Assembly: GCF_900114675.1 (NCBI RefSeq)
Contig: NZ_FOZM01000001.1
Coordinates: 1,860,001 to 1,924,000 of the forward strand
DNA length: 64,000 nt
Reading direction: 5' to 3'
DNA from: Yoonia litorea
GTDB lineage: Bacteria; Pseudomonadota; Alphaproteobacteria; Rhodobacterales; Rhodobacteraceae
Numbering within the stretch: position 1 is the stretch's first letter; each line of letters opens with the position of its first letter. Below are positions 44,141-54,452 of this stretch, in pieces. A program made the translations under genes and the position numbers. Under the pieces are notes generated by a model. It saw nothing but the letters and a program-made list of their open reading frames with translations, made no database searches and was not told where the DNA came from.

Positions 44141-44968
44141 CTACACGATCCCCAATATTTCCCGTGCTTGCATATGGTTCGCAACAGGTCTTCCGTGCTG
44201 TGCACAAATTTCGGCCAACCGCTTCACGAGGGCTGCGTTGGAAGGCGCCAAAGTGTGTTTGTCGAGCCTGATGTTGTCCTCAAGCCCGGTCCGGGCGTGG
44301 CCGCCTGCGGAGACCGACCACGCGTTTAGAAGAGACTGGTTTGCCCCGATTCCTGCCGCACACCACGGCGCGTCATCGCCGAACAAACGCTTCACTGTCT
44401 TCACATAAAAATCAAACACATCTCGATCAGCAGGCATGGCGTTTTTTACACCCATCACGAATTGGACATAGGGAGTGGCTTCGATCTGGCCGTTCCTGTG
44501 CATCTCGGCTGCCTTGAGAATGTGCGACAAATCGAAAGCTTCGATTTCGGGTTTCACGCCATAGGTGCGCATCTCGGACGCGAGCCAGTCGACGAGGTCA
44601 GGCGGGTTTTCGTAGACCCGCGTCGGGAAGTTGTTGGACCCGACGGACAGCGATGCCATGTCTGGTTTCAACTTCAGCGCGCCGCCACGCTCTTTGCCTG
44701 CTCCGGACCGCCCGCCGGTCGAAAACTGGATAATCATCCCTGGGCAGTGTTTTTCTACACCTTCTTTGAGCGCTGCAAACTTGTCAGGGTCGCTTGATGG
44801 GCTCTCATCATCGTTGCGCACGTGGGCGTGGACAATGGTGGCCCCTGCCTCGAACGCGGCATGGGTGCTTTCGATTTGCTCGCTGACCGTGATGGGCACC
44901 GCGGGGTTGTCGGACTTGCGTGGCAGGCTGCCCGTGATGGCCACGCAGATGATGCAAGGTGTCGTCAT
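44141..44968 (-). CDS. BKACE-family beta-keto acid cleavage enzyme (DUF849)
   Basis: The 275-residue TIM-barrel protein has the metal histidines H47 and H49 (VHAHVRNDDESP), FSTGGRSGAG, an EAFDLSH acidic residue and the ending R..E pattern HARTGLEDNIRL, all typical of BKACE enzymes. BKACEs condense a beta-keto acid with acetyl-CoA to give acetoacetate and a new acyl-CoA. The N terminus reads TGSLPRKSDNPAVPIT, typical of a different subgroup from the lysine-fermentation enzyme Kce. It overlaps the hydroxyquinol dioxygenase stop by 4 nt and follows maleylacetate reductase in the pathway, so 3-oxoadipate is the predicted substrate. Confidence 0.9.
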   Translation of the reverse strand: MTTPCIICVAITGSLPRKSDNPAVPITVSEQIESTHAAFEAGATIVHAHVRNDDESPSSDPDKFAALKEGVEKHCPGMIIQFSTGGRSGAGKERGGALKLKPDMASLSVGSNNFPTRVYENPPDLVDWLASEMRTYGVKPEIEAFDLSHILKAAEMHRNGQIEATPYVQFVMGVKNAMPADRDVFDFYVKTVKRLFGDDAPWCAAGIGANQSLLNAWSVSAGGHARTGLEDNIRLDKHTLAPSNAALVKRLAEICAQHGRPVANHMQAREILGIV

Positions 44969-45846
44969 GATGCAGGCGCCAGCACGAAGTCGTGAATCAC
45001 TTCGTAGTATGGTCCATCAAAGCCAGCGTCTGCGATTTTCGCCGGATCTTCGATCAGGTCAAACTTCGCCAAAAGGCTTTCCTTGACGCCGAAAACAGCG
45101 TCCGAGTGGATGTAGGGATCGTCAGGGTCGAAGATGTGCGTAATGAGAGTCTCATAGCCTTCAGCTTCAAGAATGTAGTGCAGATGTGCGGGCCGGAAGG
45201 GATGCCGCCCAAGCTTTTCAAGCAATTGACCAACCGGACCATCATCCGGGATCGGATAGAATTTCGGCTTCACACCCTTGAAGTGATAGGTGCCATCAGC
45301 GCCAGTACGAAACACGCCCCGCAGATTGAAATCGGGCTGCAGACCCTTTTGCTGCACGTCATAGAAGCCTTCGTCGTTGGCCTGCCAGACGTCGATCTTG
45401 GCAGCGTCTATGGGTTGCCCGTCTGTGCCAAGGATCCGGCCCTTGACCAGCATCGGATCCCCCTTTTGATCAAGGCAGATGTCCGATCCCATGGGCAGTT
45501 CCGGTGCGTCTGGCACGTGGAACGGCCCGAGCACCGTGGATTCCGAAGCACCGGAAGGTTTGCGATTATTGATCGCGTCTACCAGCATCGACACCCCGAG
45601 GCTGTCGCTCAGCAAAATGAATTCCTGCCGCCAGTCATTACACATATGACCGACCTTGGTGAGAAACTGGATCGCCTCGAACCATTCCTCTTGGGTAGGC
45701 TCGATCTCTTTGACGGCGGCGTGCAGATGTCTGGTAATGGCCTCCATCACTTCGGCCAAGCGTGCGTCCTTGGCGTTTGCATTGCGGCTGATGACAACCT
45801 CGGCGGAGTTGGCTTCGGTAAAATACCCTTGTTCCTGTGCTGACAT
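44965..45846 (-). CDS. Hydroxyquinol 1,2-dioxygenase
   Basis: The 293-residue intradiol ring-cleavage enzyme has an N-terminal dimerisation helix domain followed by the Fe(III) ligands Y162 (GFYDVQQ), Y197 (PKFYPIPDDG) and H221/H223 (RPAHLHY). Length, the VPDAPELPMG motif and NLRGVFRTGADG fit hydroxyquinol rather than catechol dioxygenases. It cleaves hydroxyquinol (1,2,4-trihydroxybenzene) to maleylacetate. It lies between the FAD hydroxylase (10-nt gap) and BKACE (4-nt overlap). Confidence 0.9.
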   Translation of the reverse strand: MSAQEQGYFTEANSAEVVISRNANAKDARLAEVMEAITRHLHAAVKEIEPTQEEWFEAIQFLTKVGHMCNDWRQEFILLSDSLGVSMLVDAINNRKPSGASESTVLGPFHVPDAPELPMGSDICLDQKGDPMLVKGRILGTDGQPIDAAKIDVWQANDEGFYDVQQKGLQPDFNLRGVFRTGADGTYHFKGVKPKFYPIPDDGPVGQLLEKLGRHPFRPAHLHYILEAEGYETLITHIFDPDDPYIHSDAVFGVKESLLAKFDLIEDPAKIADAGFDGPYYEVIHDFVLAPAS

Positions 45847-45856
45847 GGGTGACCTC

Positions 45857-47617
45857 CTAGCGTGCGAGGATGTGTGTGAGAACGCGGGTCAATTCTGCCG
45901 TCGGATCATCCGGCATAGCGTCATTTCGCCAGCAGACGTGCTGGTCGGGGCGCGTGAGGATACAGCCGGCGTCACCGATTTCGCGCGCGCGAGCCCAGTC
46001 GCCTGTGTGGTCGATGTATTCCTGACGCGGACCGATCACGTGTGTCCGCAGCTTGATGCCGAAGTCCTCGGCTACTTTTTCGGCCGCATCAGCCCACGCC
46101 TTGCCACCCAAACCGGTAAACAAGGTGAACGCACCGCCACCGGCCAAGTCCAGCGTCGAATGTTTGCCACCCTCGGCGTCAAAGAGCCACGCATGTGGAA
46201 TGCGCGCGCCCGGCCAAGTCGTCGGCTGATAGTGAAGGTCGGCGTCGAGGGCAAAGTCAGGCTCGATCTGGCCGTCCGTGACGATGGCGTCCGATTTGTA
46301 GCGCTGGTTCATCTCGACACCGTGGGCGTCAAACTCGTACTTCTTGAACGCAATTGCAGCGTTCAGCGCATCCCGTTGCGCCTCTGCCTCAGGCGTGGTG
46401 CCACAACGGGCGTCCATGTTGGCCTTGATCTTTTCGATATCGGTGCCGCCGGTCATGCCCAACGCCTCAAAGATCGGGCCAAATTCGCCAATTGACTGGT
46501 TGGCACGGGTAACGATCTGCTTGGCAACCGGCGCGCGTTCTTCGTTGTAGCTTTCGAGGAGTTTCTCTCCAGCCTGTCCTTTCACCACAGCAGCAAGCTT
46601 CCACGCCAGATTGTAGGCGTCCTGAATCGACGTGTTCGATCCAAGCCCGTTAGAAGGCGGGTGGCGGTGTGCCGCGTCACCCATGATAAAGACACGGCCC
46701 CTGGACATTTGCGTGGCGTAGGCATCGTTGACCGTCCAGGTGTTTGCGCTGATCAGGTCGATCTCCAGTTCAGGATCCCCCACCAACTGACGGGCCACTT
46801 CCGTTGCCATCTTTTGATCCACGTCGGGCGCAGGTTCGTTGATGTCGTATCCCCAGACGATCAGCCACTCGTTCCACGGGCGAATACAGCGCACTAGACC
46901 CATTCCAATGCCGCCCACATCTGCGCCGGGCTGCATTACCCAATAAAGTACCGATGGCCTGTGTGCCACGTATTTGGACAGGTCCGCGCGGAAGTAAATG
47001 TTCATCGACCCGCCGACGCCCATCTTGCCTTCGATCGGCAGGTCCTCGTTCTCGGCCACCAGCGAGTTACCGCCATCGGCACCGATCAGATACTTTGAGC
47101 GGATGGTAATTTCCTGGCCTGTCATCCGGTCCAGACAGGTCGTCGTGACCCCGTCGGCATCTTGCACGTGGCTTTTGTATTCAGTGCTCATCCGCGCCCT
47201 GGTCCCACGTTTGCAGGCGGTCTTGAACAGGATCGGTTCCATAAATGTTTGCGGCAGATCGTTCATGAAAGATGGTGAAGACAGCAGATGCTCGGCCTTG
47301 GACAGAGGGTGCGTGCCCCATGACTTCATCCGACCGATTTCTTCTCCGGCAAGGCTTTCGCAGAAGACATTCTCACCCATGATACTTTGGTCCATGGCGT
47401 TAAGATAAACCTCGTCCTCCACCTCGCGGCCCAGATCGCGCAGCACTTCCATTGTCCTCTGGTTCGTGATGTGCGCGCGCGGCGTGTTGGCCAACCAGTG
47501 ATAGCGGTTGATCACTATGTTTTCGACGCCATAGGTCGATAGCAAGGCAGCAGCCGTTGAACCGGCCGGTCCGGTTCCGATCACCAGGACCTCAGTCGTT
47601 ATATCAGCCATGTTCAT
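45857..47617 (-). CDS. FAD-dependent aromatic monooxygenase (phenol hydroxylase/TfdB-like)
   Basis: The 586-residue group A flavin monooxygenase has the FAD motif EVLVIGTGPAGSTAAALL, the DG region (LIGADGGNS), the GD motif GRVFIMGDAAHRHPPSNGLG and a C-terminal thioredoxin-like domain. It resembles 2,4-dichlorophenol 6-monooxygenase and resorcinol/hydroxybenzoate hydroxylases. Together with the downstream dioxygenase it probably makes hydroxyquinol from a resorcinol-type or hydroxybenzoate substrate. ATG 47617 overlaps the livM stop by 4 nt. The substrate cannot be read from sequence. Confidence 0.88.
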   Translation of the reverse strand: MNMADITTEVLVIGTGPAGSTAAALLSTYGVENIVINRYHWLANTPRAHITNQRTMEVLRDLGREVEDEVYLNAMDQSIMGENVFCESLAGEEIGRMKSWGTHPLSKAEHLLSSPSFMNDLPQTFMEPILFKTACKRGTRARMSTEYKSHVQDADGVTTTCLDRMTGQEITIRSKYLIGADGGNSLVAENEDLPIEGKMGVGGSMNIYFRADLSKYVAHRPSVLYWVMQPGADVGGIGMGLVRCIRPWNEWLIVWGYDINEPAPDVDQKMATEVARQLVGDPELEIDLISANTWTVNDAYATQMSRGRVFIMGDAAHRHPPSNGLGSNTSIQDAYNLAWKLAAVVKGQAGEKLLESYNEERAPVAKQIVTRANQSIGEFGPIFEALGMTGGTDIEKIKANMDARCGTTPEAEAQRDALNAAIAFKKYEFDAHGVEMNQRYKSDAIVTDGQIEPDFALDADLHYQPTTWPGARIPHAWLFDAEGGKHSTLDLAGGGAFTLFTGLGGKAWADAAEKVAEDFGIKLRTHVIGPRQEYIDHTGDWARAREIGDAGCILTRPDQHVCWRNDAMPDDPTAELTRVLTHILAR

Positions 47618-48669
47618 TCCTCCGAAGTTGTGAGTTGTCCACCGGACAAGCGGCGGCGAATTGGGAAAAGGTGCAGACCCGTGCGTTCAGACAAGAGCCC
47701 CCACAGACCGCGGGGTGCGATCAGCATGATCACGATGGCCAAGACGCCGAGTGTCATCAGGTACCAGCTGCCGAAGTCAGCAAGCAGCGCCTGCAAGGCA
47801 AAGAACACCAGCACGCCGATGATCGGGCCTTCGATGGTGCCAATACCGCCAATCACGACGATAAAGATGACGTATGCCGTCCAGTCGGTGACACTGAATG
47901 CGGCATCGGGGCTGATCCGCGCCTTTTGCATGTAGATAAGTCCACCTGCGAGGCCGGTGCCGAACGCTGAGGTGAGAAATACGGTCCATTTCATGCGTGC
48001 GGCGTCAACACCCACCGATTTCGCAGCTTCCGTGTTGTCGCGCACAGCAGCCAAAGCGAGCCCGCGCCGTGTCCGCAGCAGCCAGTAGATACCACCGATT
48101 GTTGCCAAGGCGAGGGCCAGTGCCAGCCAATAGGCGAGGATATCACGGGCGGCTGCAGATCGCACGCCGAGCATCTCCTCAATCCCCTCGACGAACCACA
48201 TATCGCGGGTTGCATCGCGCGGCAGCGACGTGCCTGTGCCGCCGCCCAGGGTTTTCCATTGGGCGACCAGCAACCGGACAACCTCGGCAATGACCCAAGT
48301 GCCGATGGCGAAGTATGCTCCGTTCAGTCGGAACGCAAAGAAGGCCGTTGGCACCGCGATCACAAGGGCCGCGACACCGGCGAGCAGGATGGATGGAACC
48401 GGATCAAGGCCCAACAGGATCACAGCGCCGAAAAGCGCATACGCCCCCATACCCACAAACGCCTGCTGCCCAATGCTCACCAGTCCGCCATAGCCTGCCA
48501 GCAGGTTCCAGAACTGCGCCAGAACCAGCATCGTGAGGATAAAGAACATATCCTGGATCGTCCCGCGCCCGGCAAAGAATGGGAGCACGATCAGAACAAC
48601 GACTAAAATGGCGCCAAGGATCGTTGCAATGCGCGATGCGGGCGTTTGGGTGGTAACAGTGTAAGCCAT
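47614..48669 (-). CDS. Branched-chain-type ABC importer permease LivM
   Basis: The 351-residue inner-membrane permease has about ten hydrophobic segments and the LivM patterns YGGLVSIGQQAFVGMGAYAL and RGLALAAVRDNTEAAKSVGV (the EAA-like loop that contacts the ATPases). In this cluster it likely imports an aromatic acid rather than an amino acid. It begins 1 nt into the livH stop and is followed by the monooxygenase gene. Confidence 0.92.
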   Translation of the reverse strand: MAYTVTTQTPASRIATILGAILVVVLIVLPFFAGRGTIQDMFFILTMLVLAQFWNLLAGYGGLVSIGQQAFVGMGAYALFGAVILLGLDPVPSILLAGVAALVIAVPTAFFAFRLNGAYFAIGTWVIAEVVRLLVAQWKTLGGGTGTSLPRDATRDMWFVEGIEEMLGVRSAAARDILAYWLALALALATIGGIYWLLRTRRGLALAAVRDNTEAAKSVGVDAARMKWTVFLTSAFGTGLAGGLIYMQKARISPDAAFSVTDWTAYVIFIVVIGGIGTIEGPIIGVLVFFALQALLADFGSWYLMTLGVLAIVIMLIAPRGLWGLLSERTGLHLFPIRRRLSGGQLTTSEE

Positions 48670-49532
48670 CAGTCATTCGCTCTTGGGAAAAGGCCGCGCG
48701 GGCGGACAAGAAGGACAACCAGAAATGCGACATGTCCCGCAAGGATTTGCCATTCGGGGTTGACCGCGGCGCCTACGGTCTGCGCGACCCCAATGATGAT
48801 GCCGCCCAACAGCGTGCCCCAAAGCGATCCAAGCCCGCCGATGATGACCGCTTCAAAGGCATAGATCAGCCGCGCCGGACCGATGTTGGGATCGAAATTT
48901 GCCCGCAGCCCAAGATACAGCGCAGCGATCGTGACAATCACGAGCGCGATACCGGTCGCGGTCGCAAAGATGTTGGCGGGTTTGATGCCCATGAGGCTGG
49001 CCGTGGTTGCGTCGTCAGATGTTGCGCGGAAAGCCCGGCCAAGCTCGGTCCGGTAGAATAACTGGTTCAGACCGATGATGACCAGAACGGCAGAGGCAAA
49101 AGTCAACAACGGCATGACACCGAGCGTGATCGGGCCAACATCCACAGATGCCGTCGTTAAGGCATTGGTCGGCAGACGTTGGCTGTCAGCAGAGAACCCT
49201 TCTAACAGAGCATTTTGTAGCGCAATCGATAGACCGAACGTCACCAGCAGCGGCGGAAGGATGTCGTCGCCAAGCGTTCGGTTCAGCAGAAACTTCTGCA
49301 AAACCCATCCCAATACGAACATCAATGGCATTGCTATGAACACTGCCAAGAACGGCGACAGACCCAGCAAGGTCACCAACACAAGCATCAGGTAGGCGCC
49401 CATTACGATCAGATCGCCGTGGGCAAGGTTCACCAGCCGCATGATCCCGAAGACGAGGCTCAATCCTGCGGCAAACAGCGCGTAAAGTCCGCCCAGCAGA
49501 ATGCCCTGAATGATTGTATCGACCCAGATCAA
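48669..49532 (-). CDS. Branched-chain-type ABC importer permease LivH
   Basis: The 287-residue permease has the LivH pattern: GLYALFAAGLSLVFGIMRLVNLAHGD at the N terminus (shown in pieces: GLYALFAAG, VFGIMRLVNLAHGD), LGRAFRATSDDATTASLMGI and IGGLGSLWGTLLGGIIIG. It pairs with LivM to form the membrane channel. It overlaps livF by 4 nt and livM by 1 nt. Confidence 0.93.
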   Translation of the reverse strand: MIWVDTIIQGILLGGLYALFAAGLSLVFGIMRLVNLAHGDLIVMGAYLMLVLVTLLGLSPFLAVFIAMPLMFVLGWVLQKFLLNRTLGDDILPPLLVTFGLSIALQNALLEGFSADSQRLPTNALTTASVDVGPITLGVMPLLTFASAVLVIIGLNQLFYRTELGRAFRATSDDATTASLMGIKPANIFATATGIALVIVTIAALYLGLRANFDPNIGPARLIYAFEAVIIGGLGSLWGTLLGGIIIGVAQTVGAAVNPEWQILAGHVAFLVVLLVRPRGLFPRAND

Positions 49533-50236
49533 TGGTTTGCTCCGAAATAGGCGTTGTGAATATCATCGCGCGACAGGCTGTCGGGGGTGCCGGAAAGCGT
49601 CACGCGGCCCTCCATCATGCAGTACACGCGATCTGCGACGGCCATGGCCTGCGCGATGTCCTGTTCAACCACGATCATGGAGGCGCCCGCTGCCTTGATC
49701 TGTGGAATGGCCTTGTAGATGTCCTTGATCACCACAGGTGCGAGGCCGAGGCTGATCTCATCGCATAGCAGAACGCGTGGATTGCTCATCAGCGCGCGCC
49801 CGATGGCCACCATTTGTTGCTGTCCGCCGCTGAGGGCCGTGCCGGGGTTGTGACGTCGCTCGGCAAGGATCGGGAACAGGTCATAAACGGTCTTCAGGTT
49901 CCAATGGCCATCGGTTTTACGGCCATAGGTCCCGATCAACAGGTTTTCCTCGACCGTAAGCGATGGGAAGAGTTTCCGTCCTTCAGGCACCATTGCAACA
50001 CCCTGCGCCATGATCTCATCTGCTGCTAGCGCACCGATGTTTTTGTTGTCGAAAGAGACTGCACGGGGATCATTCTGCAAAACGCCTGCGATCGAGCGCA
50101 TGAGCGTCGTTTTCCCAGCTCCATTCGCGCCGATGATGGCGACCGTTTCGGCCTTGCCCAGTTCGATATCCACACCAAATAGCGCCTGAAAGTCGCCGTA
50201 GTGCGCGGTGAGGTTCTGAGTTTGTAAAAGGGCCAT
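49529..50236 (-). CDS. ABC importer ATP-binding protein LivF
   Basis: The 235-residue ABC ATPase has Walker A (GANGAGKTTLMR), signature LSGGQQQMVAIGRALM, Walker B (VLLCDEISLGLAP) and the H-loop. LivF and LivG together energise the LivHM channel. It overlaps both its neighbours. Confidence 0.94.
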   Translation of the reverse strand: MALLQTQNLTAHYGDFQALFGVDIELGKAETVAIIGANGAGKTTLMRSIAGVLQNDPRAVSFDNKNIGALAADEIMAQGVAMVPEGRKLFPSLTVEENLLIGTYGRKTDGHWNLKTVYDLFPILAERRHNPGTALSGGQQQMVAIGRALMSNPRVLLCDEISLGLAPVVIKDIYKAIPQIKAAGASMIVVEQDIAQAMAVADRVYCMMEGRVTLSGTPDSLSRDDIHNAYFGANH

Positions 50237-50955
50237 CAGACTTCTATCCCCAGATAGATTTCCTGAACCTCTTTGCTGGCCATGATTTCATCTGGATCGC
50301 CAAGCCCGATCACCTTGCCGAAGTCTAGAACCAGCAGACGCTCGACGACCGAGGTCAGCGCGTGCAACACATGTTCGATCCAGATGATCGTGACGCCCTG
50401 CGCATGAATGTCCTTGATGGTGCGGATGAGCGCCTGACACTCGCCCTCAGTCAAACCGCCCGCAATCTCGTCGAGCAGAAGCAGTTTGGGCTGCGTCGCC
50501 ATGGCCCGCGACAATTCTAACCGTTTGCGTTCCAGTAACGAAAGCTGCCCCGCTGGCGTATTTGCCCGTTTGATCAGTTCCGTCCGCTCCAGCACCTCTG
50601 CACAGTCATCGCGCACATCGCGCTCGGACAGATTGCGCCCGTGGGTCGCGGCGACAAGGAGGTTTTCGTAAACGGTCAGCTTTTCAAACGGTTGCGGGAT
50701 CTGGAAAGATCGTCCAATGCCGGTCAGGCACCGCTCCATTGCGGAAACCTTGGTCACGTCGCGCTCTTGAAAGTGGATACTTCCCTCGTCGGGTCGTAGG
50801 TTTCCGGTGATCAGATTGAACAGCGTTGATTTGCCGGCGCCGTTGGGTCCGATGATGCCAAGCGCCTGCCCCTCGGGCACCTCGAAGCTGGCGTCATCGG
50901 TCACGGTCAACGCGCCAAAGCTCTTTGAGACATTCTTCAGTGCAAGCATCGTCAT
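50236..50955 (-). CDS. ABC importer ATP-binding protein LivG
   Basis: The 239-residue ABC ATPase has Walker A (GPNGAGKSTLFNL), signature QLSLLERKRLELSRAMATQ (the variant LSLLERKRLE of the LivG group) and Walker B (KLLLLDEIAGGL). ATG 50955 is chosen; another ATG lies two codons on. A perfect 8-bp hairpin lies just upstream, after the substrate-binding protein gene. Confidence 0.93.
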   Translation of the reverse strand: MTMLALKNVSKSFGALTVTDDASFEVPEGQALGIIGPNGAGKSTLFNLITGNLRPDEGSIHFQERDVTKVSAMERCLTGIGRSFQIPQPFEKLTVYENLLVAATHGRNLSERDVRDDCAEVLERTELIKRANTPAGQLSLLERKRLELSRAMATQPKLLLLDEIAGGLTEGECQALIRTIKDIHAQGVTIIWIEHVLHALTSVVERLLVLDFGKVIGLGDPDEIMASKEVQEIYLGIEV

Positions 50956-51009
50956 CAAGCGTTACCCGCCCCGCGTTTACGCCGGGCTCAGTCAGAAAGT
51001 AGTGGTGGA

Positions 51010-51032
51010 GGCCCCGGTCAGCAGCCGGGGCC
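51010..51032. terminator. Strong hairpin between the binding-protein gene and livG
   Basis: GGCCCCGG (51010-51017) pairs perfectly with CCGGGGCC (51025-51032) around a 7-nt loop, without a T run. It lies 13 nt after the binding-protein stop (51045). Such hairpins in ABC operons often limit read-through and stabilise upstream mRNA, giving more binding protein than permease. Confidence 0.55.
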
Positions 51033-51044
51033 CGGTTTATTGGC

Positions 51045-52322
51045 TTAAGAAGGGATTTCTTCCATTGACCCACCCGTCGGAATGTCGGGGTGGACGGAAT
51101 TGTCAACGATTACCAAATCGTAGCCGCCTCCGTCCTTCAGGCGCCATTGGCCGCCGACAAGTGGCGTCTTGGCGACGTTCTGGGTCGCAAAGGGCGGAAG
51201 CCCAGCGCCATCGAAAGCAATCCGTCCAACAATGGAAGAGAGCTGTGTTGCCGCAATCGCGGCTGTGACTTCATCGGGATCGCGGCTGTCTTCAACACGG
51301 CCCATAACGTTAGCTGCCATTTCAAAGAGCGCGTGAACAAAGCCAATGGGTTGGGTCCACTGCTTGCCTGTTGCGGCCTCATAGCCAGCGGCCAGATCGC
51401 CTGCCGATTGACCGGTCAGCGAGGAAGCAAACGGGTGGGATGGTGACCACCAAACCTCGGAGCTGAGGTTATGTCCCTGATCGCCTAGTGCTTCTACAGC
51501 CTGCGGGAAGAGGATCGCCTTGCCAATGCTGGCGGCTTTGGGGTTGAACCCCTGCTGTTTGGCTTGCGTCCAGAAGGTCGTGAAATCCGGTGGGATTGGC
51601 ACGCCGGTGACGATTTCGCAGTTCGCGGCCTTGAAGGCATTGATTTGGGCGCTGAAATCATCCGTGAGGTTCTGATAGCGCCCCGTGTCAGTCAGCGTAT
51701 AACCCTGCGCATCCAGCACTGGCGGGAAACCCACGACTGGGTCGCCCCATGCGTTGCCGTCCCCGTCGTTGGGGAAGATCGCGCCAACCGATTTGTTCGT
51801 ATCGAGCTGGTTCCACATTGCCGTAAAGACGGAAATCACATCCTCGAGCCCCCAGAAGAAATGGAAGCTGAAATCAAAGGGCTGCCAACTTCCGGGGTCG
51901 CCTGGGTTGCCCTGCTGGCCGATGAAATAGGGCTGCCACGGAGCGACGGTCGAGATCACGGGAATTTCTTCTGCCTCACAGGTCGTGGCGACCGGGTTGG
52001 TGGTTTCGGGGGTGGACGCAACAAGCATCATGTCGATCTCATCGTCGATGATCAGTTCCTTGGCGACTTCGGCAGCGCGGTTCGGATTCGATTGGCTGTC
52101 CTTGACGATGACCTCGAAGTTGGACCCCGCATCAGAGGCGAGAAACCCGTCGATGATGAACTGGTCTGCTTCTGAGAACGCCGCCAGCGGTCCCGATTGC
52201 GGGCTGACATAGCCCAGCCGGATTTTCGCCCCTTGAGCCAAGGCCGGAGCAGAAAGACCGCCTGCCGCCAGTGTAAGCCCCGTTGCTGCAGTGGATTTCA
52301 GTAGTCTACGGCGTGTGATCAT
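51045..52322 (-). CDS. ABC substrate-binding protein, Tat-exported (LivK-like)
   Basis: The 425-residue periplasmic protein has a Tat signal (MITRRRLLKSTAATGLTLAA, then SAPALAQG). The mature part follows the type I periplasmic-binding fold of the Leu/Ile/Val family (KIRLGYVSPQSGPLAAFSEA, VEALGDQGHNLSSEVWWSPS). It likely captures the aromatic substrate of the downstream hydroxyquinol pathway. It follows macA after 25 bp. The Tat route is less usual than Sec for this family but common in Rhodobacterales. Confidence 0.9.
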   Translation of the reverse strand: MITRRRLLKSTAATGLTLAAGGLSAPALAQGAKIRLGYVSPQSGPLAAFSEADQFIIDGFLASDAGSNFEVIVKDSQSNPNRAAEVAKELIIDDEIDMMLVASTPETTNPVATTCEAEEIPVISTVAPWQPYFIGQQGNPGDPGSWQPFDFSFHFFWGLEDVISVFTAMWNQLDTNKSVGAIFPNDGDGNAWGDPVVGFPPVLDAQGYTLTDTGRYQNLTDDFSAQINAFKAANCEIVTGVPIPPDFTTFWTQAKQQGFNPKAASIGKAILFPQAVEALGDQGHNLSSEVWWSPSHPFASSLTGQSAGDLAAGYEAATGKQWTQPIGFVHALFEMAANVMGRVEDSRDPDEVTAAIAATQLSSIVGRIAFDGAGLPPFATQNVAKTPLVGGQWRLKDGGGYDLVIVDNSVHPDIPTGGSMEEIPS

Positions 52323-52347
52323 GATGTCCTCCCAAACGTCGTCTCAA

Positions 52348-53412
52348 TTATTCGATAGGTGTGTCGCCCGCCCAGGCCGCCTGCAAAAGCGCGCGGATGT
52401 CGTCGCGCGTCACAGGTTGCGGGTTGGGGTAAGGTTTCGTGGTGGCCAGATCGGCGGCGCGATCAAGATCGGCTTCCGCCATTCCCAGGTCGCGCAATGC
52501 TGTTGGTGCGTTCATGGATGTCGCGAAGTTGTGCAAGGCCGTTCCTGCATTATCTCCGCCCAACAGATCGCAAATCGGTCGCAGGTCCTTGGCAACTGCA
52601 CGGGCATTGTAGGCAATGGCGTGAGGCAAAATGATCGCGTGGGTTTCGGCATGAGGCAGGTCGAACGAGCCGCCCAGTGTGTGGCAAAGTTTATGATGAA
52701 GCGCCATGCCGACTTGCCCAAGAACAGTGCCGCAGGCCCAGGCTCCGCGTTGTGTCGCCTCGCGCGCGGCAAGGTCGGATGGGTCGTCCAGAACCTTCGG
52801 CAACCCATTTACAAAAGCCTTCAAGCCGTCAACGGCCATCGCTGTCGTCCCGGCTGTACGGTCGGTGGCGTAGAGCGCTTCTGCCGCATGTGCCATCGCA
52901 TTCAGGGCAGACGTCACAGTCATCGCGACGGGAAGCGTTTTGACGAGTTCTGAGTCGTAGATAATGACTTCAGGCAACACCTTCGGGTCACTCAACGTTG
53001 TTTTCACACCATTTTCTGTCTGACCAAGAATGGGCGTGCATTCGCTGCCAGCATAGGTCGTTGGAATGACAATCTGCGGCAGGTCGGTCCGGTAGGCGAT
53101 GGCCTTCCCGAGGCCGGTTGTCGAACCACCCCCGATCGCCACAACACAGTCGGCCTGGGTTTCTGCCACATGGCTCATCGCAACTTCGGTGACCTCTACC
53201 GGTGTGTGCATCGCCGCTTTGCAAAAGACACCCGCCGCCAGTTCTCCAAGATATTCAGCGATTTCCAAAGCCGCGTCACCTTGTTGCGGTGTCGCGAGGA
53301 TCAACGCTTTCGACAGGTTCAGCCTGCGAAGCTCGGCGGCGATATTGCTCCGCGTGTTGGCTCCGAACACGACTCTGACGTCTGAACTGATATCTTGGGC
53401 AGCGTGTCCCAC
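52348..53412 (-). CDS. macA: Maleylacetate reductase
   Basis: The 354-residue iron-containing alcohol-dehydrogenase-type enzyme has VVAIGGGSTTGLGKAIAY, IPTTYAGSECTPILGQTENG, and the metal/nucleotide region HHKLCHTLGGSFDLPHAETH. It reduces maleylacetate to 3-oxoadipate with NAD(P)H. I prefer the GTG at 53412 (preceded by GGTGGAG) because it gives the usual family length. An ATG at 53487 would add 25 residues that look non-conserved and would leave only 14 bp to the divergent LysR gene. Confidence 0.9.
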   Translation of the reverse strand: MGHAAQDISSDVRVVFGANTRSNIAAELRRLNLSKALILATPQQGDAALEIAEYLGELAAGVFCKAAMHTPVEVTEVAMSHVAETQADCVVAIGGGSTTGLGKAIAYRTDLPQIVIPTTYAGSECTPILGQTENGVKTTLSDPKVLPEVIIYDSELVKTLPVAMTVTSALNAMAHAAEALYATDRTAGTTAMAVDGLKAFVNGLPKVLDDPSDLAAREATQRGAWACGTVLGQVGMALHHKLCHTLGGSFDLPHAETHAIILPHAIAYNARAVAKDLRPICDLLGGDNAGTALHNFATSMNAPTALRDLGMAEADLDRAADLATTKPYPNPQPVTRDDIRALLQAAWAGDTPIE

Positions 53413-53501: not shown

Positions 53502-54452
53502 ATGAAAATTGATCCTAATCACCTTCAGATGCTCGCAGCGATCATCGACTCGGGCGGCCTCAGCGAAGGCGCTGCCCAACTGAACAAATCGCAGCCCAGC
53601 GTCTCGAGGTCTCTGGCCATGCTTGAAAAGCGCCTCGGGTCGCGACTGTTCGAGAAGGGAAAGAGGCCGCTCAGGCCAACTGAACTCTGTCAGACATTGG
53701 CAGAGCAAGGTCGTGTCATTGGGGCGGCAAGCGCCGCCGCGCAGACGGCTGTAGAGCTTTATTCAGGCGGCAAGGCGGGGACGGCGCGCATTGCCGGCAC
53801 GCCAATTTTCATGGATGGCGTCATCTCGAACATGATGGCCTCATTTCAGAGCGCCTTTCCGGAGGTCGCAATCCATCAGACCTACGGCTACCTGGCTGAC
53901 TTGTCCGATCAGTTGAGCGTCGGCAACATCGATCTCGCAATTTGCCCTGTCAGCCCAGAAGGGGTTCCGCCGCCTTTGAAATTCAGGCCTATCCTACGTG
54001 GCCGCAACGTTATCGCTTGTGCTTCATCGCATCCGCTCGCACGGCAATCGGCGGTCAAGCTGGAAGACATTGCCGCCTATCCATGGATCGCTCCGCCCGC
54101 AGGCAGCCCCTTGTATTCTGATTTGAAGGCAGCTCTGGACAGTATCGGGATCACCGATTTTCGTGTCAGCTTTACCGGGGGATCCCTCGCATCGATCTTA
54201 AGCGTCATGGCGGGGTCCGACGCTTTGACTGTTTTGCCATATTCAGTCGTGTTCATGCAAAGGGCGGCTAAAACGATCACCGCGCTTCCGGTGCGGCTCG
54301 AACACCCCGATCGTGAGTTGGGCCTGCTGTGGCACGAAGACCGGCCCATGCGACCGGCTGTTCGGAGGTTTCAAAAGTTTCTCGAAGCCGAATTCAAGGG
54401 TCTCGCGGACCGAATTGATGAACGCGGCCGCGAAAACGTATGGCGTCGGTGA
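53502..54452 (+). CDS. LysR-family regulator of the hydroxyquinol cluster
   Basis: The 316-residue LysR protein starts MKIDPNHLQMLAAIIDSGGL with HTH GLSEGAAQLNKSQPSVSRSL and a C-terminal effector domain (ICPVSPEGVPPPLKFRPILR). It is divergent from macA with 89 bp between if macA starts at 53412, the usual set-up for LysR control of aromatic degradation genes. The inducer is likely a pathway intermediate, but this is inferred. The intergenic DNA is AT-rich (AACAATATATCATGATG). Confidence 0.92.
   Translation: MKIDPNHLQMLAAIIDSGGLSEGAAQLNKSQPSVSRSLAMLEKRLGSRLFEKGKRPLRPTELCQTLAEQGRVIGAASAAAQTAVELYSGGKAGTARIAGTPIFMDGVISNMMASFQSAFPEVAIHQTYGYLADLSDQLSVGNIDLAICPVSPEGVPPPLKFRPILRGRNVIACASSHPLARQSAVKLEDIAAYPWIAPPAGSPLYSDLKAALDSIGITDFRVSFTGGSLASILSVMAGSDALTVLPYSVVFMQRAAKTITALPVRLEHPDRELGLLWHEDRPMRPAVRRFQKFLEAEFKGLADRIDERGRENVWRR

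Follow-up and report, generated by a model that had tools for sequence, protein, structure and literature searches.

A predicted BKACE ending for the hydroxyquinol branch of the 3-oxoadipate pathway in Yoonia litorea and other Rhodobacterales

We analysed a window of 64,000 nucleotides from Yoonia litorea (assembly GCF_900114675.1, contig NZ_FOZM01000001.1, positions 1,860,001 to 1,924,000; coordinates below count from its first letter), in which nine contiguous minus-strand genes at 44141-53412 encode, in transcriptional order, the maleylacetate reductase MacA, a periplasmic binding protein, LivG, LivF, LivH, LivM, an FAD-dependent phenol-type hydroxylase, hydroxyquinol 1,2-dioxygenase (HQD) and a BKACE protein. 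It is very likely that this operon allows a resorcinol-type phenol to be taken up and degraded aerobically through the hydroxyquinol branch of the 3-oxoadipate pathway, and that the branch ends here in BKACE. The gene order, the family memberships, the absence of recognisable pcaIJF genes from the genome and the recurrence of the arrangement in relatives form the basis of this reading; from these we infer the substrate of the hydroxylase, the activity of BKACE in this bacterium and the ScoAB step. The substrate would be imported by the Liv-type ABC transporter and hydroxylated to hydroxyquinol, which HQD would open by intradiol cleavage to maleylacetate, and MacA would reduce maleylacetate to 3-oxoadipate. 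BKACE would then convert 3-oxoadipate and acetyl-CoA into succinyl-CoA and acetoacetate, the single ScoAB pair would turn acetoacetate and succinyl-CoA into acetoacetyl-CoA and succinate, and a housekeeping thiolase would split acetoacetyl-CoA into two acetyl-CoA. By arithmetic from the established reactions, the net conversion would be 3-oxoadipate and CoA to succinate and acetyl-CoA, a balance equal to that of the 3-oxoadipate CoA-transferase pcaIJ plus the thiolase pcaF; the CoA transfer would be shifted from 3-oxoadipate to acetoacetate, where a housekeeping enzyme could manage it.

The BKACE gene (44141..44968, minus strand, 275 aa) encodes a predicted 3-oxoadipate:acetyl-CoA acetyltransferase. 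The protein scored 496.5 bits against NF053568, the curated NCBIfam equivalog of that name (cut-off 350), and 307 bits against PF05853, with 3fa5, 3chv and 3no5 as solved relatives. Residues H47, H49, E230, R226, D231, S83 and E143 are invariant in 53 orthologues and align with Kce (2y7d); we take them to be the metal ligands and catalytic residues of the BKACE/Kce family. At the position of the glutamate that in Kce presumably binds the substrate amino group, the protein carries a leucine. Arg87 is likewise invariant in the 53 orthologues where Kce has alanine, and our guess is that it binds the distal carboxylate.

The genes upstream would supply the hydroxyquinol branch. HQD (44965..45846, minus strand, 293 aa), whose frame overlaps that of BKACE by 4 bp, has the Dioxygenase_N and Dioxygenase_C domains. 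Its five closest solved relatives are 8r2x, a 6-chlorohydroxyquinol dioxygenase and the best match, 3n9t (PnpC), 8r2v (named only as an intradiol-dioxygenase-domain protein), and the hydroxyquinol dioxygenases 1tmx and 8r2w, and all five outrank the catechol enzymes. MacA (52348..53412, minus strand; Fe-ADH) is closest to 3w5s and 3hl0, both maleylacetate reductases; its open frame extends to 53487, and since similarity starts at residue 35 of the longer frame, the start was placed at the GTG at 53412. The pairing of hydroxyquinol 1,2-dioxygenase with maleylacetate reductase is therefore present within one operon. The hydroxylase (45857..47617, minus strand, 586 aa; PF01494, PF21274) has 4cy6 and 6u0p as its closest solved relatives, which are a 2-hydroxybiphenyl 3-monooxygenase and a 2,4-dichlorophenol 6-monooxygenase. 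Its family fits ring hydroxylation and does not fix the substrate, which is probably resorcinol-like.

The assembly (3.32 Mb, 99.94% complete) was then considered as a whole. A single CoA-transferase pair was found genome-wide, on another contig than the operon; it matches the mixed pcaI/scoA and pcaJ/scoB models and is ScoAB-like. Using TIGR02429 we separated a PcaI type (304-375 bits) from a ScoA type (216-244 bits when full length), a split set after seeing the scores that may not hold more widely, as more distant genomes gave intermediate values of 265-279 bits. The ScoA subunit of Y. litorea scored 234 bits and is 41% identical to a PcaI-type protein encoded beside a pcaF-type thiolase. 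No thiolase in the genome exceeded the pcaF cut-off (best 376 vs 597 bits), and the HQD query, which did detect distant intradiol dioxygenases in relatives, returned no second one here. The absence of pcaIJF that the earlier note had read from the gene cluster is thereby extended, as far as such genes are recognisable, to the genome, in which BKACE appears to be the only recognised dedicated consumer of 3-oxoadipate. Acetoacetyl-CoA synthetase was considered as an alternative activator of acetoacetate and rejected, as no protein in the genome was over the cut-off (best 257 vs 520.9 bits); judged by genome content, ScoAB would be the only acetoacetate activator over a curated cut-off. The route had been described in that note as CoA-transferase-free, a wording that finds no support, because acetoacetate needs activation and the only candidate is itself a CoA-transferase.

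Two further BKACE genes of this genome were set aside. One, 74% identical over its longer piece (C5:122668-123488; L014 8669-9489), contains an internal stop and lies in pieces among unrelated genes; it is perhaps what is left of a former pca cluster. The other (36% identical; C8, L013 9291-12479) was taken as another type; it lies near a gene for a 3-hydroxyacyl-CoA dehydrogenase/thioesterase fusion, an arrangement that resembles that of carnitine degradation.

Operons of the protocatechuate branch offer a comparison for the proposed partnership. On plasmid pP88_d of Phaeobacter inhibens the order is pcaC-pcaH-pcaG-BKACE-CoA-transferase A-B-pcaD-3-carboxy-cis,cis-muconate cycloisomerase. The BKACE following pcaG is 81% identical to that of Y. 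litorea, and the adjoining transferase subunits A and B are 91% identical to its ScoA and ScoB, subunit A (236.6 bits) belonging to the low, ScoA-like group. This operon differs from ours in its branch and in holding ScoAB inside the operon, whereas scoAB lies on a separate contig in Y. litorea. Locus L061 repeats the BKACE neighbours of pP88_d with scoA in two pieces, and in L250 BKACE is followed by ScoAB. Moreover, the slot between pcaG and pcaB is occupied by a CoA-transferase pair and a thiolase in L241 (from the genome of the Hoeflea locus L082) and L242, and by BKACE in L247. That BKACE and ScoAB may act as a pair is suggested most clearly by the arrangement in pP88_d, L061 and L250.

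We further studied the operon in relatives, using an alignment of four HQDs as the query and keeping the best 80 of at least 513 loci, a scan that is not exhaustive and to which the following counts refer. The closest HQD by sequence (96%) came from a Litoreibacter metagenome-assembled genome (MAG). The order from the binding protein through LivG, LivF, LivH, LivM and the hydroxylase to HQD was complete in 68 of the 80 loci, and BKACE was the next gene after HQD, on the same strand, in 20, with the matched segments between 1 base overlapping and 35 bases apart. By title these 20 are of Rhodobacterales type or unspecified, plus one Cohaesibacteraceae MAG (L085), with no rhizobium among them. 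Two of them were counted as coupled and omitted from the BKACE tree: L079, whose BKACE has an in-frame stop, and L112, whose contig ends within BKACE so that 44% of it is covered. The stop in L079, a Roseobacter MAG, reflects either decay or sequencing error. Recurrence of the coupling, a point raised in the earlier note, is thus borne out. That BKACE is a chance neighbour with no part in the operon has next to no probability: 60 of the 80 relatives lack it as the next gene, which would fit such a view, but the 4-bp overlap with HQD, the shared strand and close spacing in 20 relatives and more than one origin of the coupling speak against it. Given the conserved gene order and the 20 coupled loci, we do not regard the neighbourhood as accidental.

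In the BKACE tree (53 rows), the HQD-linked copies need six label changes, at least two of which are forced by strongly supported branches, and they fall into two strongly supported clades of 13 and 26 rows that both also contain pca-linked copies. Mapped onto the HQD tree, the coupling requires 13 changes, of which five or more are forced. The coupling has been gained or lost repeatedly. The BKACE of hydroxyquinol operons probably came from pca operons, a direction that depends on the midpoint rooting of the tree. As a separate observation, a same-genus genome (G020, contig C31; L064 6822-9190) carries a copy of the operon in which an 85% identical BKACE directly follows the hydroxylase gene without an intervening HQD; the contig stops about 600 bases into BKACE, and elsewhere the genome has only a weak HQD match.

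An alternative is that 3-oxoadipate receives its CoA from ScoAB and the resulting 3-oxoadipyl-CoA is split by a general thiolase, leaving BKACE auxiliary or redundant. ScoAB does fall in the mixed pcaI/scoA and pcaJ/scoB families, the genome holds pcaF-related thiolases (best 376 bits), general thiolases are reported in the available text of PMC12442348 to compensate for pcaF in Roseovarius nubinhibens, and the ScoAB-type subunits inside the pP88_d pca operon would fit activation of 3-oxoadipate by ScoAB as well. However, the identity of ScoA to the PcaI-type protein is just 41%, and ScoA-type genes exceed the cut-off in 21 of the 24 genomes of the genus regardless of BKACE, a distribution that one would expect for a housekeeping gene. 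Moreover, such a route leaves the repeated coupling of HQD with BKACE unexplained, and we consider it unlikely. The conversion of 3-oxoadipate and acetyl-CoA by BKACE into succinyl-CoA and acetoacetate, in which it would stand in for both pcaIJ and pcaF as the earlier note had proposed, remains the most likely function, to which the NF053568 score, the genome content, the recurrence and the pca-slot comparisons all point.

We next scored 45 genomes (44 of the 80 HQD genomes and the source genome) for BKACE, pcaF, TIGR02429 and CatIJ-type CoA-transferases. The 44, many of which are MAGs without stated completeness, do not include the 32 genomes of rhizobial type or four MAGs, those of L081, L108, L132 and L136; the last two (uncoupled; a Planktomarina and a Rhodobacterales MAG) were left out unintentionally. 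A transferase was called dedicated if it belonged to the high TIGR02429 group or to the CatIJ type; all 11 high scorers were fetched, and eight adjoin a pcaF-type thiolase. Dedicated 3-oxoadipate CoA-transferases were present in 8 of 35 genomes with BKACE vs 8 of 10 without (Fisher p 0.0017). Restricting the comparison to Rhodobacterales-titled genomes, which drops eight rows (G050-G054, G069, G076, G084), gave 8 of 33 vs 4 of 4 (p 0.0075), and sorting by HQD coupling gave 3 of 21 coupled genomes vs 13 of 24 others (p 0.011). Three genomes (G062, G063, G068) have both a coupled BKACE and PcaI; in each of them a second HQD (56-59% identity) is found a few kb or less from the PcaI gene, which therefore belongs to another cluster. 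Eleven BKACE-carrying genomes, the source genome included, have neither a dedicated transferase nor a thiolase over the pcaF cut-off; one of them belongs to Phycocomes zhengii (L096), a cultured relative that carries the coupled operon. Genomes G054 and G076 have neither BKACE nor a dedicated transferase.

Several results weigh against BKACE as a simple replacement for pcaIJF. Eight genomes hold both BKACE and a dedicated transferase, and a relatedness-controlled test of the two, with four independent pairs on starred branches, gave a median p of 1, a number of pairs too small for p to fall to 0.05. The idea that BKACE and pcaF exclude each other had to be rejected, as thiolases over the pcaF cut-off were found in 23 of 35 genomes with BKACE vs 8 of 10 without. 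Among same-genus relatives (n=15), such thiolases occurred in 5 of 11 with a close BKACE and 0 of 4 without; all of them thus lie in BKACE-carrying genomes, which argues against a simple replacement of pcaF. Finally, BKACE orthologues of the same equivalog also adjoin aminotransferase genes, so the subfamily may accept other substrates. As to the setting of the thiolases over the pcaF cut-off, 10 of 20 fetched regions, picked mainly from BKACE-carrying genomes without a dedicated transferase, hold relatives of paaA, paaC, paaZ or paaK, as in the phenylacetate pathway.

The genomic neighbours of BKACE and its residues bear on this substrate question. A close BKACE (at least 67% identical) is present in 16 of 24 same-genus genomes, and in the 15 same-genus loci fetched (L049-L063) the full-length gene neighbours pcaG or pcaH in nine, a class-III aminotransferase-like gene in five and neither in one (L054, with a pca cluster about 14 kb off). 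As pcaG and pcaH mark another route that forms 3-oxoadipate, their proximity fits 3-oxoadipate as the substrate. In L049 (6186-9390), L050, L052 and L053, the BKACE by the class-III aminotransferase gene is 75-80% identical, with carbon-nitrogen hydrolase-like genes near; perhaps a beta-amino acid route feeds the same BKACE in these genomes. It is also conceivable, if rather improbable, that BKACE acts on another beta-keto acid, for example a substituted 3-oxoadipate from methylated or halogenated hydroxyquinol, with plain 3-oxoadipate as a minor substrate. Such a role would suit the resemblance of the hydroxylase to substituted-phenol hydroxylases, the 6-chlorohydroxyquinol dioxygenase as best solved relative of HQD and the aminotransferase neighbours of some orthologues. 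However, within a comparison limited to nine BKACE positions, S14, P16, V109, G110, S111 and F145 are identical in all 53 orthologues and K18 in 52; positions 15 and 17 vary without separating the contexts, so no residue dividing HQD-linked from pca-linked proteins was found at these nine.

The remaining genes of the operon, also on the minus strand, encode the transporter: LivM-type (47614..48669) and LivH-type (48669..49532) permeases, both PF02653 (BPD_transp_2), LivF-type (49529..50236) and LivG-type (50236..50958) ATPases, both PF00005 (ABC_tran), and a periplasmic binding protein (51045..52322; Peripla_BP_6). Adjacent frames in the operon overlap or lie at most 86 bases apart. The best NCBIfam match of the LivF-type ATPase is the LivF model, under its cut-off, and none of the five transporter proteins attains an NCBIfam equivalog cut-off; 'Liv-type' is therefore a family name and not a substrate. 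All genes listed in the earlier note are present and contiguous, and its family assignments for the transporter and the ring hydroxylase stand; the sequence does not tell the substrates of either. A divergent LysR-type regulator (53502..54452, plus strand; PF00126, PF03466), which likely regulates the operon, is also divergent to MacA in many of the 80 relatives' loci. The scanned neighbours of the operon comprise one DNA polymerase III alpha-like gene, one aldo/keto reductase gene and two genes without a Pfam match.

Parts of this ending are already known; the statements below follow the available portions of the cited papers. In Methylobacterium pca operons, DUF849 takes the place of pcaIJF, with growth on protocatechuate (PMC8963497), and transfer of pcaHGBL together with kce into M. 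extorquens led to growth on protocatechuate (PMC12379598); PMC4922564 likewise covers BKACE chemistry and the part it plays in the protocatechuate branch, and all three build on Bastard et al. 2014. These Methylobacterium operons resemble ours in placing BKACE in an ortho-cleavage operon without pcaIJF, with succinyl-CoA and acetoacetate as the proposed products, and differ in the branch, the upstream enzymes and the uptake system. For the catechol regulon of Ralstonia eutropha H16, a COG3246 protein of the BKACE family is likewise proposed to cleave 3-oxoadipate, as a prediction and in the catechol branch, and frequent linkage to protocatechuate dioxygenase genes is noted (PMC6449761). Another BKACE has genetic support, with acetoacetate-activating genes needed alongside in one bacterium (PMC6365646). 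The BKACE reaction, its occurrence in protocatechuate operons and the proposal for catechol have thus all been published, and NCBIfam names the activity, so the claim of a new ending for aromatic catabolism in the earlier note does not hold. As far as our searches reach, the novelty is that the ending recurs in a third branch, that of hydroxyquinol, in Rhodobacterales; we found no published description of this in a literature search without most subscription journals.

Related hydroxyquinol operons can end otherwise. The rhizobial LysR operon on Rhizobium lentis p1 matches ours up to HQD, but lacks BKACE and has an additional dioxygenase gene before MacA; two annotated rhizobial plasmid copies carry the operon without BKACE. 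The extra dioxygenase gene lies at 559-1422 of L069 and 517-1392 of L070 in rhizobial copies, and a relative of it occurs in 38 of the 80 loci, one of which is among the 20 with BKACE. The same-genus loci L066 and L067 (genomes G011 and G017, as separate hydroxyquinol loci) and the Mesorhizobium locus L149 share HQD and MacA, leading to 3-oxoadipate, but finish in the textbook way, with a thiolase and a pair of CoA-transferase genes instead of BKACE.

Taken together, these results make it reasonably likely that the ending of ortho-cleavage pathways is a swappable cassette, with BKACE and the housekeeping ScoAB replacing pcaIJF in the protocatechuate, catechol and hydroxyquinol branches, that Rhodobacterales hydroxyquinol operons recruited BKACE repeatedly, with pca operons as the probable source, and that some genomes have no other dedicated exit for 3-oxoadipate. 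This offers a testable rule, in which BKACE plus ScoAB equals pcaIJF. If pcaIJ and pcaF are made a requirement in pathway reconstruction, aromatic degradation would be scored as incomplete in this bacterium and in the 10 of the 44 relatives that have BKACE but neither a dedicated transferase nor a thiolase over the pcaF cut-off, although it probably is complete in them. If true, the BKACE ending would let an aromatic operon spread without a CoA-transferase and thiolase of its own.

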